A DNA stretch of 64,000 bases from Brevibacillus laterosporus LMG 15441 (GTDB taxonomy: Bacteria; Bacillota; Bacilli; Brevibacillales; Brevibacillaceae): positions 3,072,501 through 3,136,500 of the forward strand of contig NZ_CP007806.1 of assembly GCF_000219535.2 (NCBI RefSeq). The letters run 5' to 3'. The position numbers and the translations under genes are program-made. Within the stretch, counting starts at the first letter, position 1. Each line of letters starts with the position of its first letter. Positions 26,714 to 34,468 of the stretch are shown piece after piece. The notes beneath the pieces are model-generated. The model had not been told where the DNA came from. It saw only the letters and a list, made by a program, of their open reading frames with translations, and did no database searches.

Positions 26714-27145
26714 CTAGCATTTACAAATACAAACTTTTTCAACTCTGCGAACCTGACCACGTATTTCCCCACCAGGGTGTTGAGTGGTATGGGCATTTAC
26801 ATAGGTTTCTCCTCTTAGCATCAGCTGGATTAATTCCGCAAGTGTTCTTCCTTGGAGCGGACCAACCAAATCTGCACTAGTAATGGATCCAGTCACAACG
26901 GCATCACATACACTAATTCCACGTTGTACCGGTCCAAAAAGAAATACCACTATCGGCCCATTAACACCTCTAACCCCGATATGAATATGGGCTTGGGTCA
27001 GGTCACGTAAATCATGTAACGATAAACGGAAATCAAGTCTGCTATTATCTGCACTAAGCTGGAACGTAGCGGTCCCAGAAGCATTTGTGAGAACAGGTGG
27101 GACTTCCTCAGAGCCTCGTAGCTTAGCTTGGAATTGTATTGTCAT
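26714..27145 (-). CDS. CHRD-domain protein
   Basis: A 143-residue protein made of one CHRD (chordin-like) domain, with 'GSEEVPPVLT', 'AHIHIG' and 'HPGGEIRGQV' as typical landmarks. CHRD domains are beta-sandwich folds found in surface or spore proteins in bacilli; their molecular role is not established. There is no signal peptide. The cysteine-rich end (VCICKC) is odd and could support cross-linking or metal binding. The start has an AAGGAGGTG site. It stands alone. Confidence 0.85.
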   Translation of the reverse strand: MTIQFQAKLRGSEEVPPVLTNASGTATFQLSADNSRLDFRLSLHDLRDLTQAHIHIGVRGVNGPIVVFLFGPVQRGISVCDAVVTGSITSADLVGPLQGRTLAELIQLMLRGETYVNAHTTQHPGGEIRGQVRRVEKVCICKC

Positions 27146-27781: not shown

Positions 27782-28561
27782 TTATTTTGCACTTGTAGAA
27801 GAAGTTAGCGGTACATGATAAACCTTATTTAAAAAATAGGTTTGCACGAGCGAAAATACTCCACCCACGACCCAATATAATGGAAGGGCTGCTGGCAAAT
27901 TCATTCCAGCCATAAAGATCATGATCGGCATCATGTAATAGAACATTTTCATATTATTAGCTCCCATGGTAGGAGTCATTTTCATTGACAGCATCGTTTG
28001 GAAAAAGGTTGTCGCTGCTGCTAGTAAAGGCAAGATATAAAATGGATCGGCATGTCCTAAGTTAAACCACATAAATGAATGGTCAGCAATCTCTGGTGTA
28101 CGACGAATCGCGAAGTAAAATGCCATTAGGATCGGCATTTGAACCAGAGCAGGGAGACAGCCCGCCATTGGATTAACTCCGCTTGCTTTGTACAATTCCA
28201 TCATTTCCATTTGCATTTTTTGGGCTTGTTTAGGGTCCTGATTGGAATTACTATACTTTTTTTTCAGTTTATCAATCTGTGGTTGCAGCTTTTTCATGGC
28301 AGCCCCACTTTTCATTTGCTTCATCATGAGAGGCAATAAAAGTGTTCGAATCAACAGCGTCATAATGACAATCGCTAGCCCATAATTCCCATCTGTTAAG
28401 CTAGCAACGTTTTGGATTAACCATGAAAATGGATAAACAAAAAAGTGATCCCAGATACCAGGACTATCTGATGTTATCGGAGCTGTATTGCTACATCCGC
28501 TCAGCAATAACACCACAGCACCAAATAAAAATACAGGTAATGATTTACGTACAGCTTTCAT
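27782..28561 (-). CDS. yidC: YidC/SpoIIIJ-family membrane protein insertase (YidC2-like)
   Basis: A 259-residue lipoprotein insertase. The N-terminal signal ends in a lipobox (LLLSGCS, lipidated Cys23). Five membrane helices follow, with a charged cytoplasmic hairpin ('MKKLQPQIDKLKKKY') and the conserved arginine in 'LLIRTLLLPL' expected in the hydrophilic groove. It inserts proteins into the membrane, alone or with Sec. The ATG at 28561 has a GAGGAGG site that can be hidden by a hairpin formed with the end of the upstream ORF. The gene is not next to rnpA or jag, so it is probably the second, regulated YidC of the cell. Confidence 0.9.
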   Translation of the reverse strand: MKAVRKSLPVFLFGAVVLLLSGCSNTAPITSDSPGIWDHFFVYPFSWLIQNVASLTDGNYGLAIVIMTLLIRTLLLPLMMKQMKSGAAMKKLQPQIDKLKKKYSNSNQDPKQAQKMQMEMMELYKASGVNPMAGCLPALVQMPILMAFYFAIRRTPEIADHSFMWFNLGHADPFYILPLLAAATTFFQTMLSMKMTPTMGANNMKMFYYMMPIMIFMAGMNLPAALPLYWVVGGVFSLVQTYFLNKVYHVPLTSSTSAK

Positions 28562-28565
28562 GAAC

Positions 28566-28615
28566 AAATCCTCCTCATTGTTTGCAAACTCTATAAACAA
28601 ACAAGGAGAAGATTT
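28566..28615 (-). promoter_or_regulatory. Hairpin sequestering the yidC Shine-Dalgarno
   Basis: In the minus-strand RNA the arm at 28615-28598 pairs with 28584-28566. Seven perfect pairs close the loop; then, past one bulged U, ten pairs (two G-U) and one mismatch cover the whole GAGGAGG site (28576-28570). The 5' arm lies inside the last codons of the upstream ORF, so a ribosome held there would melt it. Confidence 0.75.
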
Positions 28616-28878
28616 GGGAGTGTATCATCAGATGACGTGGTTGCTCGCTTCTCTTTTCGCATAGGTACTCGTCGATATAATTTAATAAAAGACGAACGTA
28701 TTGGCATTGTCACAAGCTGTTGACGCCATTCAAAACGTTCTTCGTATTGCATTGACTGACGTTTCCCAACGATGTGAGTAAATAATAATTGACAGCATGG
28801 AACTACAATTACAGATACCCAGAAGAGCAACCAAACATAAGGTAATGACAACCCAATTAATTCATCCACCACGTGCAT
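28591..28878 (-). CDS. MifM-like membrane nascent-chain sensor candidate upstream of yidC
   Basis: A 95-residue protein with one N-terminal membrane helix (about 10-37), acidic residues before it and basic ones after, so N-out/C-in. A charged cytoplasmic tail follows, with 'KLYRRVPMRKEKR' and 'SSDD' near the end. B. subtilis MifM is also 95 residues, has the same topology, lies directly upstream of yidC2, and stalls at its C-terminus to open a hairpin over the yidC2 ribosome site. Here the stop lies 29 nt before yidC and the hairpin is present. Primary sequence similarity to MifM is weak. The start has a GGGAGGTGA site, and an extended -10 (TGTTACAAT, 28928-28920) lies upstream. Confidence 0.75.
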   Translation of the reverse strand: MHVVDELIGLSLPYVWLLFWVSVIVVPCCQLLFTHIVGKRQSMQYEERFEWRQQLVTMPIRSSFIKLYRRVPMRKEKRATTSSDDTLPNLLLVCL

Positions 28879-29048
28879 CTCACCTCCCTATCTGTACATA
28901 AATAGCTAGTACAGTTCCTATTGTAACATACTGTCCATTCCTTGTGGGAGATGTTATGAATTGTTACTTTTTAGAGGAAGGTAAAGACAGTTTTTGATCA
29001 AAAAAGCAGTGAATCGCTCACAAATGGGTAACAGTTATAGCTTTTACT

Positions 29049-29864
29049 TTATTTTTTCGTTTTCTTGTCTGTCTTTGTTGGTGTCGCTTGTTTTTCTTTT
29101 ACCATTCTGGATACCTGCATAATTGTGGCTTCTTTTTGTAATTGAGGTAAATAGTTGCGGATTGCTTGAGCAACCTTTTTACCTCCAGGCCCCACATGGC
29201 CGATAGCAACACATACTTCATTTTGTTTTACTTTTTCACTAATGAGTCTCAGTTGCTTCGTAATATGTGAGGACGTATGCACATCATCTAAAAAGACCAT
29301 GTTTTCAATATAAGGAACCTGTAAATCGTGAGCGACCTGTCCCACAATGCTTCTATAAGAGGTTTTACTGTCAATGTAAAAAAGTCCTCGCTCTTTACAT
29401 ACCTGTAATACAATCCGCATAATACGTGGATTTTGGGTAATTTTCGACCCCATATGATTATTCATACCGATTGCGTGCGGAACATCGTCAATCGCTTTGT
29501 TCACTCGATTGCGGATTTCCTCATCACTTAAATTACTCATAAGGGCTCCGGGCCCTAGCCAGCTTTTAGCCCCTCTCATTGGTTCCATTGGCATGTGAAC
29601 AATTACGTCATGTTTCTTTTGATGGGCCAACTCAGCATCTTTTTTTGTACTTGGTAAAAATGGCATGACTGCAATAGTTAATGGAATCGGTAAATTAAGA
29701 ATTTCCTCTGTTCCCCTCATATTATTGCCAAAATCGTCTATAATGAGGGCCACTTTGCGTGTTTTCATGGGATCGGGAATCTTTTGTTCAGAAGCGGTGA
29801 CTGAGGAACTGACAAGCGCTCCACAAAGCATCAAGACTATTCCTAGTTTAGAAGCAATCCACAT
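29049..29864 (-). CDS. Divergent polysaccharide deacetylase (YibQ-like), secreted
   Basis: A protein of about 271 residues. Residues 1-26 form a Sec signal peptide. The mature part has the NodB-like fold of the YibQ/DUF610 group: VALIIDDFGNN with an Asp pair, 'DVIVHMPMEP', 'MNNHMGSKIT', 'FYIDSKTS' and 'VAIGHVGP'. These residues resemble the metal site of polysaccharide deacetylases. The substrate is not known; cell-wall glycan is likely given the neighbouring muropeptide genes. The ATG at 29864 is preferred, with an AAAGGTAGG site and the signal peptide starting there. The lysine-rich C-terminus is probably disordered. Confidence 0.8.
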   Translation of the reverse strand: MWIASKLGIVLMLCGALVSSSVTASEQKIPDPMKTRKVALIIDDFGNNMRGTEEILNLPIPLTIAVMPFLPSTKKDAELAHQKKHDVIVHMPMEPMRGAKSWLGPGALMSNLSDEEIRNRVNKAIDDVPHAIGMNNHMGSKITQNPRIMRIVLQVCKERGLFYIDSKTSYRSIVGQVAHDLQVPYIENMVFLDDVHTSSHITKQLRLISEKVKQNEVCVAIGHVGPGGKKVAQAIRNYLPQLQKEATIMQVSRMVKEKQATPTKTDKKTKK

Positions 29865-29942
29865 ACTTAAACCTACCTTTACAACGTTTTTTGTTAGTAT
29901 GTGCAACGGCATCCGCTTTCACTCCATTTGAAAACACACAGT

Positions 29943-32021
29943 TTACAGTCCATGACCGTAGGGATACAAAATGTTGCCTTTCGTATCATAGATTGTAACG
30001 GGTAGCTTCCCTTTGGATTTCCCTTCACCAAACAGAATCGCTGCTGTGGCTTGAAAGCTTGCATCTGCATTTCCATATTGCGCCACATACGTAGGGACCT
30101 TTTGAAAATCAGTAAGCTGATATGGGTTTCGTGTAGAAATCATAATTACCGGCTTTTGCTTCTGGTCAATCAGCTTTTTTATGAGTTGATTTACCGGCTG
30201 TAAGCCTCCTGCGAATGAGTCTGGTAAAACCATCAATATGTCGGCACGATCTATTTGTTGTTGTTGCTCAGCTTTGAGCACATGGTTGAGCTTAATGGCT
30301 ACTGTATTTTGATGATATTTCTGGAATGCCCTAGTCATTTCACTCGTATATCGTGACCCAATCACCGCTATTCTTTGTTCAGGAGAAGGATGGAGCGGCA
30401 GTATCCGATCATTTTTAACCACTGTGATTGATTGCTCAGCAATAGCTCGCTCCACTTGTTTGTGAGCTGGTGAAGTAATTGATTTCTCTGCGATTTGTTG
30501 AAGAATAGGAACATGTGGCATCTGTTCCTGCGCAAAAATTCCTCTTCTCATCTTTACTGTTAGGATCCGTCTAACTGCTTCATCCAAACGTTCCTTCTTT
30601 ATTGTTCCCGACATGACTGCCTTCTGCATTCCTAAACTAACCTTTTCAACATCTGGGGGCATTAAAATAATGTCTGCACCAGCATTCATTGCACGAATAC
30701 TGGCATCTACAGTCTCGAAATGCTGTGTAATCCCTCCCATATCCATAGCATCCGTAATAACTAAGCCATCATAACCAAACTCTTTTCGTAATAGCCCTTG
30801 GACGAGCTTAGGTGAGAGCGTAGCTGGTAGATAAATGGATTTGTCCTTTTGATGAGATTCTACCTTTGTAGGCTCTAGCTGTGGAAAAGCTATATGAGCG
30901 ACTAAAACAGAATCTACTCCTTGCTTGATTGCTTGTCGAAATGGAATAAACTCTACTTGCTCCAACTGCTTTTTCCCATAAGAAATAACGGGTAAACCAA
31001 CATGGGAATCTACCGATGTATTGCCATGTCCGGGAAAATGCTTTGCGCTCGCCACAACTCCCGCATCCTGCATACCTGCAATAAAGGAAGTACCCATTTC
31101 GGCTACTAATTGTGGGCTTTCACCATAAGAACGTACCCCAATCACTGGGTTCTTAGAATTATTATTGACGTCTATGGTTGGTGCAAAATCTAAATTAATC
31201 CCGAGTGAAAGGAGTTCATCTGCCATTACTTGTCCAGCCTGATAGGCAAGCTTAGGATTTCGTGTTGCACCTAATGCCATATTTCCTGGCATATTCGTCC
31301 CTTGCTTCAGTCGTGAAACAATTCCGCCTTCCTGATCTGTACCAATAAGTAAGCCGAATTTATGCTGGCTTTGCTGTAGAGCAGTTGTCAATTGAACAAT
31401 TTGTTTGGTCTCATTTAAGCTGTCCTTAAATAAAATGATTCCTCCTAGCTGGAGTCTCTTTATCATATTTGCAATCTCTGGCGTCAACTCCTGAAAAGGC
31501 TTGCCGCCATACATACTAAAACTTGGCATTAATGTCTGTCCTACTTTATCAGCCACGCTCATGGTAGCGAGCAGCCGAGAAATAACATCGTATTTGGCCT
31601 GTGGCTCAGTAATGACTTTCACAGTATTCTTGTCCGTTTTTTCAAGCACCAATCGGTCATGGTAGGTCCCATCTGACACTAAAACGACTGTTTGACCCAA
31701 TTTATCCTGTATGGTTAAAAGTCCTTCTCTCGTAACGGTTGCTACCAGTGGATTGCTAGAGCTCCAGCTTATATTAGCTTGCACCTTTGATAGGCGACCA
31801 TCGGCATACGTATGCAACGCTTGTAATTGAATCTGCGTGGCGGGATATGTCTTGGGCGTTTCAGGCAGATTTTGCGCCAACAATAAATCTGTAGGGTGGG
31901 TCGTGGACACAGTTGTTGTCCGCATCGTATCTGCCCTGTCCTTTGATAAGAAGGGAATGAAAAAACAAGCAAGAAGAATCAAGCTAACTGACGTATAAGC
32001 AAAAATATGCTTCCGTTTCAT
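29943..32021 (-). CDS. nagZ: Beta-N-acetylglucosaminidase NagZ-like (GH3), secreted
   Basis: A GH3 enzyme of about 692 residues with an N-terminal signal or anchor (about 5-25) and a short Ig-like region with 'VTREGLLTI' before the barrel. The barrel shows 'IGTDQEGG', KHFPGHGNT and the His/Asp pair in 'SVDSHVGLP' typical of NagZ; the nucleophile is likely the Asp in VITDAMDMGG. A second alpha/beta domain follows, as in B. subtilis NagZ (YbbD). It removes GlcNAc from muropeptides outside the cell. It lies 27 bp after the NamZ fusion gene, so both form one recycling operon. The ATG at 32021 fits the GGAGG site best. Confidence 0.88.
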   Translation of the reverse strand: MKRKHIFAYTSVSLILLACFFIPFLSKDRADTMRTTTVSTTHPTDLLLAQNLPETPKTYPATQIQLQALHTYADGRLSKVQANISWSSSNPLVATVTREGLLTIQDKLGQTVVLVSDGTYHDRLVLEKTDKNTVKVITEPQAKYDVISRLLATMSVADKVGQTLMPSFSMYGGKPFQELTPEIANMIKRLQLGGIILFKDSLNETKQIVQLTTALQQSQHKFGLLIGTDQEGGIVSRLKQGTNMPGNMALGATRNPKLAYQAGQVMADELLSLGINLDFAPTIDVNNNSKNPVIGVRSYGESPQLVAEMGTSFIAGMQDAGVVASAKHFPGHGNTSVDSHVGLPVISYGKKQLEQVEFIPFRQAIKQGVDSVLVAHIAFPQLEPTKVESHQKDKSIYLPATLSPKLVQGLLRKEFGYDGLVITDAMDMGGITQHFETVDASIRAMNAGADIILMPPDVEKVSLGMQKAVMSGTIKKERLDEAVRRILTVKMRRGIFAQEQMPHVPILQQIAEKSITSPAHKQVERAIAEQSITVVKNDRILPLHPSPEQRIAVIGSRYTSEMTRAFQKYHQNTVAIKLNHVLKAEQQQQIDRADILMVLPDSFAGGLQPVNQLIKKLIDQKQKPVIMISTRNPYQLTDFQKVPTYVAQYGNADASFQATAAILFGEGKSKGKLPVTIYDTKGNILYPYGHGL

Positions 32022-32047
32022 GAACATAAGCCTCCGTCACATGTTGA

Positions 32048-34468
32048 TTACTCCCCTTCTATTGCAGCCAAGGTAGCAATTTTTTGGCGCAACGCATTAA
32101 GGGAAGGTTTTTCTCTGGTCGGATGCACTCGATTCGTTAATAACAACACGATTGACTGTTGTTGTTGATTGATTAACAATGAAGTGCCCGTAAATCCAGT
32201 ATGTCCCACGCTAGGCGTGACAAAACCATGCCCCATGTACCAGGCTTGATTCCGCTCAAATCCAAGCCCCATTTGTTTCGGGCAAGTGTCTGATAATTGA
32301 TTCGCGAGCATTTCCTGTACACTCTCAGCCTTAAGTATCCGTTTTCCCCTTACTTTTCCATTGTGAAGAATCATCGTAGCAAATCGTACTAGATCATCTG
32401 CATTGCTAAATAATCCAGCATGTCCAGCCACGCCATCTAAGGCCCAAGCCTTTTCATCATGAACGCTGCCCCAAATGATGTCGCGCTTTGTCCAAGGTTG
32501 CTGTTCAGTGGCTACGATTTTCTGCCTATGTACTTTTGGACAAAATCCTGTGTGCTTCATTCCCAATGGTTGAAATAGATTCTCTTGCATATATTGATCC
32601 AGCCGTTTCCCTGTTAGCTGTTCAATCAGATACCCCAGTACAATATAATTGAGATCACTATACACCATTTTTTCGCCGGGATGATTTTTAAGACCAAGCA
32701 TGAGTACAGCCTTCATCCTTTGCTCACGGTCACCCGGTATTCTGTACAGCCGCATAGTAGGGGCAAATCCAGAGGTATGAGTCAAAAGCTGCCGAATCGT
32801 AATATCCTGCTTTCCCTTACACGCAAAAGCGGGAAGATAGGCAGCTACTGGCTTATCTAGCTGCAACATTTGTTTTTCTGCTAATTGCATAATGGCCACA
32901 GCTGTGAATAGCTTTGTCAGAGAAGCGATGTCAAATAAATGTGTTTCCGTCATTTTGATTGGCATTTCTGCTAATTTACCAGCTTTGTTTTGATATAGAT
33001 AGGCATGTCCATAGGCTTGCTCTATTTTTCTTTTTCCTCTTGTAATAATGGCTACGACGGCACCCGGGATAATCTTGTCTTTAATGGCCTGTTCGATCGC
33101 CTGATTCACTTCATCACGCATCCCCTCACCACGTTTCCCTGATCCACGTTCACGATACAGCAGATATTTTTGACGCACCTTTACAAATGGATGTAGAGCT
33201 GCTCTCCATTGTTGAATCATCTGCTGGGGATTATGGGCTTGTAAGGTTTGGGTTTGCTGATCAACTGCTTCCTGCAAGGAGCGCGTACCTGCCATATAAT
33301 GAATCCAGCCATCGTCTCTCCATTTAAAATGCTGGGGATAACGCTTTTTAATAAGCTGCAGCAAGGTGAGTCCCGTCAAGGTGCTATGATAAGCTGTTCG
33401 ATCTGTTACATACAATTGCACACCATGAATGGCTTGTCCCTTATATTTACCGTACATCGGTTCCATATGTGCTTCACGAATTGCTATCCCAGGAAGATTT
33501 GCCCCAACAAGATCTGCTCGCAAGCGATGAGCATGAATAAAAGGTGCACCAACCCATTCGAATGGATGAGTAGTCCCTCTTCCCTCTGAAAGATTGGTTC
33601 CTTCTAGCAATCCTGTAGCAGCATATAACCAAGCAGACTCTACTGTGGGTAGATTAGGAGAAGGAGCTACCCATAACAATCCAGTTTGATCCCAAGTCAT
33701 TTCTCGTTTCCAGCCTTGCATTCGAATTACTCGTAGGTCTGCCTTTCCTCCACGCTTGTTAGGCATAACTTCTTCATTATAAAAGAGAGCAAGTTCCCCC
33801 ATCGTCATTGCATGGCGCAGAGGAATAGGCATCATTCCGATAAATGAGCTCCACCCCTTCTCCAGTAGAGGTCCCTCTATCCTAACCCCGCCTAAGGGAT
33901 TGGGACGATCTAGCACCATGACCGGCTTATCAGCTAATTTAGCAGCCTCCAATACATAAGCCAATGTAGAAGCATAAGTATAATAGCGTACACCCACATC
34001 CTGTAGATCAAACAAAAGAATATCCGTGCCAGCAAATAGCGTCGCAATCTGTTCTGGTTTCTTTTGATATAGCTCAAATACTGGAATGGAATGTTGTTTT
34101 ATCTGTGGCGATACAGAAGGAAAAACAGTTGGCTCTCCATCCTGCTTTACCCCCCATATTCCATGCTCTGGACCATAAAGGGCAACTACGTTTAGACCTT
34201 TTTGCTGTAAGGCGTCCAAATCAGTAACCAAATCCTTAGTGACTCCAGTCTGATTCGTGATAAGTCCAATCTTCTTACCATGTAACAGCTCAGGATGTGA
34301 TAAAAGAACATCAATCCCAGCAAGGACATGCTTTTCCTTTGTTTCATCAGCTAAGATAGAGGAGCTCCCATGAAAGAAGCTGACCCACAAAAGCAAGCAA
34401 GCGAGCACACAGACACTTCTGCCCTGAAGACGTAAAGCTCGCATGTTTTGGCTACCCACTTCCATCAC
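32048..34468 (-). CDS. NamZ exo-muramidase fused to an AmiE-like serine hydrolase domain
   Basis: An 806-residue secreted fusion. After a signal peptide (about 10-40), residues 45-430 match NamZ (DUF1343): 'KIGLITNQTGV', 'ALYGPEHGIWG', 'LLFDLQDVGVRYYTY', 'LDRPNPLGG'. From about 455 a beta-lactamase-fold domain begins, with the nucleophile in 'DIASLTKLF' (SxxK), 'VYSDLNY' and 'GHTGFTGT'. In B. subtilis namZ, nagZ and amiE are separate adjacent genes; here NamZ and the AmiE-like part are one chain, followed by nagZ. Together they would release MurNAc and GlcNAc from peptidoglycan. The exact start is uncertain (34468, 34465 or 34444). Confidence 0.85.
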   Translation of the reverse strand: MMEVGSQNMRALRLQGRSVCVLACLLLWVSFFHGSSSILADETKEKHVLAGIDVLLSHPELLHGKKIGLITNQTGVTKDLVTDLDALQQKGLNVVALYGPEHGIWGVKQDGEPTVFPSVSPQIKQHSIPVFELYQKKPEQIATLFAGTDILLFDLQDVGVRYYTYASTLAYVLEAAKLADKPVMVLDRPNPLGGVRIEGPLLEKGWSSFIGMMPIPLRHAMTMGELALFYNEEVMPNKRGGKADLRVIRMQGWKREMTWDQTGLLWVAPSPNLPTVESAWLYAATGLLEGTNLSEGRGTTHPFEWVGAPFIHAHRLRADLVGANLPGIAIREAHMEPMYGKYKGQAIHGVQLYVTDRTAYHSTLTGLTLLQLIKKRYPQHFKWRDDGWIHYMAGTRSLQEAVDQQTQTLQAHNPQQMIQQWRAALHPFVKVRQKYLLYRERGSGKRGEGMRDEVNQAIEQAIKDKIIPGAVVAIITRGKRKIEQAYGHAYLYQNKAGKLAEMPIKMTETHLFDIASLTKLFTAVAIMQLAEKQMLQLDKPVAAYLPAFACKGKQDITIRQLLTHTSGFAPTMRLYRIPGDREQRMKAVLMLGLKNHPGEKMVYSDLNYIVLGYLIEQLTGKRLDQYMQENLFQPLGMKHTGFCPKVHRQKIVATEQQPWTKRDIIWGSVHDEKAWALDGVAGHAGLFSNADDLVRFATMILHNGKVRGKRILKAESVQEMLANQLSDTCPKQMGLGFERNQAWYMGHGFVTPSVGHTGFTGTSLLINQQQQSIVLLLTNRVHPTREKPSLNALRQKIATLAAIEGE

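Follow-up and report, generated by a model that had tools for sequence, protein, structure and literature searches.

A putative MifM-like sensor of YidC insertion upstream of the second yidC gene of Brevibacillus laterosporus

We analyzed a 64,000-nucleotide (nt) stretch of the Brevibacillus laterosporus LMG 15441 genome (the window), in which a 95-codon upstream open reading frame (uORF; 28591-28878, minus strand, ATG start, TAG stop) precedes yidC2, a second gene for the insertase YidC. The uORF is probably a diverged member of the known MifM family, a sensor type known from Bacillus, with a tail of different sequence. We propose, with a probability of roughly 0.85, that it encodes a putative sensor of YidC insertion which works like MifM of B. 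subtilis.

In the proposed mechanism, the N-terminal helix of the uORF product would be inserted by YidC while the nascent chain is still ribosome-bound. With prompt insertion, the pull would free the chain, translation would end, a hairpin would close on the yidC2 Shine-Dalgarno sequence, and yidC2 would be off. With total YidC activity too low, the tail FIKLYRRVPMRKEKRATTSSDDTLP would arrest translation around codons 85-88. In this position the ribosome would cover the 5' arm of the hairpin, leaving the Shine-Dalgarno sequence free and allowing YidC2 to be made.

The uORF and its conserved tail

A preliminary description of this DNA had placed a 95-codon ORF 29 nt before yidC, and this is indeed the distance from the uORF stop to the yidC2 ATG (28561). 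A likely Shine-Dalgarno sequence of the uORF itself, GGGAGGTG (28881-28888, minus), stands directly 5' of it. A single transmembrane helix is predicted at residues ~13-33 (28780-28842, minus), both from the uORF sequence and from the hydropathy peak in two close relatives (L145 and L146). Acidic residues flank it on the N-terminal side and Lys or Arg on the C-terminal side, such that the positive-inside rule predicts an N-out/C-in orientation, in agreement with the preliminary description.

The uORF is 95% identical in two close genomes and 37% identical in a third, and nucleotide differences from the two close genomes fall chiefly at third codon positions. Judged from the sequence, this conservation and third-position bias indicate that it is not a chance ORF. 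Residues 64-88 (FIKLYRRVPMRKEKRATTSSDDTLP; 28615-28689, minus) are kept beside a diverged first 63 residues and form the putative arrest segment. Within it, the acidic pair D84-D85 (28624-28629, minus; local charge -0.4 over 5 residues) apparently corresponds to the MifM DEED block. The last conserved residues, L87-P88 (28615-28620, minus), are the predicted P-site and A-site codons of a stalled ribosome, as modelling frees the yidC2 Shine-Dalgarno sequence with the P-site at L87 or P88.

When its translation was used as a query, the uORF was found in four of the five genomes of the genus. Across the family (39 genomes), three other uORF matches were returned, weak and broken by stops. No NCBIfam model covers the uORF, and its sole Pfam match (DUF7892, E 0.16) was under that model's cut-off. 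The uORF alone found no relative in a PDB sequence search; a 22-row profile (A1) returned only a seipin at E 1.1 and thus did not reach the chain of MifM in the structure of the stalled ribosome. Rfam gave no family at E <= 1 across 28300-29050, and a search for a consensus promoter at the uORF-yidC2 locus found none.

YidC2 lineages and the uORFs of related loci

The target gene, yidC2 (27782-28561, minus; 259 amino acids, lipobox LLLSGC, PF02096 at 4.7e-55), is one of two yidC genes in the genome, the other adjoining rnpA. The "lone yidC" of the preliminary description therefore holds for the neighbourhood and not for the genome. A mixture-model tree of the full row set, in which the YidC2 rows form one clade, places the product inside the YidC2 (YqjG) clade. 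An earlier quick tree under the same model did not recover YidC2 as one clade and put 18 alkaliphile rows on the YidC1 side (Shimodaira-Hasegawa-like approximate likelihood-ratio test, 91); it was the poorer tree, having lost 29 rows through a motif filter. An origin of yidC2 as a recent duplicate of the rnpA-linked gene was rejected, the two lying in separate, well supported groups.

A search with the window YidC (E <= 1e-10) gave a single match in 28 of the 39 Brevibacillaceae genomes and two matches in the other 11. The second copy was of the window kind in four of the latter and of a second kind, type 2, in seven (L044, L045, L046, L047, L049, L054 and L057). Type-2 proteins are very divergent and short, with starts like MYTFVQPVI, and are parted from the rest by a branch of ~1.7 changes per column under LG+G4 and 3.8 under the mixture model. 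Their carriers include G002, of the same genus as the window, and this search found no genome with both kinds. In G031, only a 50-residue C-terminal piece of a type-2 YidC (C11:35338-35487, 58% identity) was found in addition to yidC1, apparently a further case in which the second copy was lost.

A transmembrane-bearing uORF precedes the second yidC in all 11 two-copy genomes, and the seven type-2 tails read LFVRRKAPPKE..S.DDAEP or close to that. Within Brevibacillaceae, a putative sensor of MifM type thus occurs ahead of two second YidC lineages that differ greatly, and sensor and target may therefore be exchangeable. In G002 (L057 / L043), an ORF resembling ribonuclease Z by eye lies directly 5' of the uORF and type-2 yidC2; an rnz gene presumably also lies near the yqjG region of B. 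subtilis.

Similar uORFs were found more widely. Retrieval with a five-row YidC2 alignment gave 481 loci, and among the best 80 (the named loci) an automatic filter identified a transmembrane-bearing uORF in 67. Most of their tails, by eye, read ..RKIP...S.DEE.. or a related sequence. Those of the B. subtilis group read RITTWIRKVFRMNSPVNDDED, near the published motif RIXXWIXXXXXMNXXXXDEED. No MifM-like uORF was seen at yidC loci L061-L066 and L130-L132 or at 13 of the 80 named loci. At 47 loci, uORFs were selected and their start codons assigned by eye. Profiles were built with 65 of the 67 named loci, two Brevibacillus loci being omitted. A ranking against 156 decoys was contaminated and not used, as L102, L104 and L108 had entered the decoys via the family profile; L102 and L108 at least lie directly 5' of a yidC match.

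Loss and regain of the uORF within the YidC2 clade is possible, though less likely than descent from a shared ancestor, because some loci of the clade (e.g. L130 and L193) show no such uORF. Regain would fit the departure of the window tail from the strict MifM motif and the failure of tail-only, B. subtilis-only and genome-wide profiles to find the window uORF. Against it, the full-length profile does find the window uORF, the target itself belongs to the YidC2 clade, and most examined members of that clade have a transmembrane-bearing uORF with an acidic tail. By eye, the tails also agree in position, spacing and residue content (aromatic/IK, RR, P, K/R-E, S, DD).

A predicted hairpin over the yidC2 Shine-Dalgarno sequence

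The minimum-energy fold of 28555-28640 consists of a 19-pair hairpin and a small 4-pair hairpin. The 5' arm of the former (28597-28616, minus) spans uORF codons 88-94, and the 3' arm (28565-28585, minus) includes the yidC2 Shine-Dalgarno sequence AGGAGG (28570-28575). The fold energy was -21.1 kcal/mol, compared to -14.9 +/- 2.6 for dinucleotide shuffles, 3 of 200 of which were as good. The preliminary description had proposed a hairpin with its other arm in the last ORF codons, and both the hairpin and the position of that arm were recovered. However, it counted 17 pairs and a fully paired Shine-Dalgarno sequence, which is mostly rather than fully paired given a mean unpaired probability of 0.16.

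We compared this site with related loci, combining the 47 by-eye loci, less the orphan of G029 and six f37/f46 loci whose groups the named set covers, with the 65 named loci (105 in total). G355 gave no start, leaving 104 scored loci, and 101 were kept after G149 and L196 (Shine-Dalgarno matches of 4/6 and 2/6) and L195 (by hand, acidic site mislocated) were dropped. Controls were 37 yidC1 loci, with a site in 35 and a yidD-type neighbour at 32 of these. Related loci among the 101 are not independent, which applies to all of the following counts. The unpaired probability was below 0.2 at 87/101 uORF-yidC2 loci versus 8/35 controls, a comparison between stretches of different lengths. Relative to synonymous recodings, it was under the mean at 90/101 loci and ranked in the bottom 5 of 100 at 51/101. 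The cost of opening the site, computed over one stretch length for both sets, had medians of 9.2 kcal/mol at uORF loci and 3.3 at controls, and was at least 7 kcal/mol at 80/101 and 2/35, respectively. In the window, the opening cost was 10.8 kcal/mol, compared with 5.4 at the yidC1 gene of that genome, although the unpaired probabilities were little apart (0.16 vs 0.19).

Within the window clade, 24, 9, 8 and 96 of 100 recodings masked the site at least equally, which is not significant. Four aligned sequences showed no covariation beyond shuffles; 81.6% of cells in this alignment were paired, versus 45-62% in slid versions. The preliminary description was to be refuted by a lack of tail or hairpin conservation in relatives; the tail is conserved over residues 64-88, and the arrangement of uORF and yidC2 recurs at related loci. 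Its interpretation as a whole is partly supported.

Plain translational coupling, in which any ribosome finishing the uORF melts the hairpin and aids yidC2 with no regulated arrest, would suit the short 29-nt gap and a hairpin that extends into the uORF. We consider this improbable, since it explains neither the conservation of residues 64-88 beside the diverged first 63 nor the transmembrane helix at related loci. A small membrane protein with its own function (e.g. a YidC partner), co-produced with YidC2, is highly improbable: it is the cytosolic tail whose sequence is preserved, not the diverging helix, and several relatives' uORFs continue into yidC in another frame with seemingly unconserved ends. 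The point in its favour is an orphan in G029 (L142:747-1013), whose uORF persists although G029 lacks ~630 nt that carry the type-2 yidC2 in G025 (L045), and is identical to that of G025 at 256/264 nt versus 707/757 for upstream DNA; the deletion may be recent.

The genes just upstream of the uORF look like a cell-wall recycling cluster. An 806-amino-acid protein (32048-34468, minus) fuses N- and C-terminal NamZ domains (exo-beta-N-acetylmuramidase) to a beta-lactamase-type domain. The genes after it encode a member of glycosyl hydrolase family 3 (29943-32027) and a polysaccharide deacetylase of divergent sequence (29049-29912). Downstream of yidC2 lies a gene for a 143-amino-acid CHRD-domain protein (26714-27145, minus).

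Comparison with known arrest peptides

Three arrest peptides, MifM, ApcA and CliM, are known upstream of yidC (CliM paper, 2026, PMC13183943). Combining sequence clustering with a charge filter (local charge < -0.3 over 5 residues between residues 70-100), Fujiwara et al. 2024 (PMC10987492) obtained 572 sequences of MifM type across 592 Firmicutes genomes. The window uORF resembles these homologues. It is a small same-strand uORF directly upstream of yidC with a local charge of -0.4 at residues 81-88 (simple charge count, not the idpr package). Its transmembrane segment is followed by a soluble part of more than 30 residues (62 behind the helix, by hydropathy only). From our own estimate of the helix end, 52-54 residues separate it from D85-L87, close to the published MifM median of 54 (PMC10987492). 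B. laterosporus may already be among the 572 sequences. The name Brevibacillus does not occur in the main text of PMC10987492, and is unmentioned in the literature matches listed on such arrest peptides.

CliM (Clostridia insertase monitor, uC_KYxIW; PMC13183943) likewise combines a yidC uORF, a transmembrane segment, an arrest tail and a hairpin over the yidC start, but its KYxIW motif is absent from the window uORF translation. ApcA and other RAPP-type peptides of actinobacteria and other bacteria share a uORF of yidC or a sec gene with a transmembrane segment or signal. Unlike the RAPP type (RQH, ApcA, ApdA/P, SecM), the window uORF contains no RAPP, RAPG, RAGP, RGPP, QAPP or HAPP.

The closest counterpart is mifM-yidC2 (yqjG) of B. 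subtilis, and the likeness of layout noted in the preliminary description extends to the uORF, helix, hairpin and target. Both systems have a 95-codon uORF 5' of the second yidC, an N-terminal helix, a tail with aromatic-Ile, basic residues and an acidic cluster, and a Shine-Dalgarno hairpin extending into the last uORF codons; YidC2 of the B. subtilis group falls in one clade with the window target. Stalling by MifM is dependent on residue M90 of ribosomal protein L22, whose F85 makes contact with MifM (PMC4423224). L22 of the window genome has F85, R86 and M90, so its ribosome should be permissive for MifM stalling.

As the preliminary description held, the C-terminal segment differs from that of MifM. 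Relative to the strict motif RIxxWIxxxxxMNxxxxDEED (PMC7897499), the window tail has F for W, a displaced M, no N, and DD for DEED. It thus carries two acidic residues rather than four and lacks MN, while its basic stretch is longer, a conserved T-L-P stands behind the acids, and the modelled switch point lies about two codons later. If the proposed sensor is real, it would be a natural, strongly diverged MifM tail acting on a ribosome with B. subtilis-like L22. The window tail would then help show which residues the stall needs, as it differs from MifM at W73, at M80-N81 and in the run of four acidic residues.
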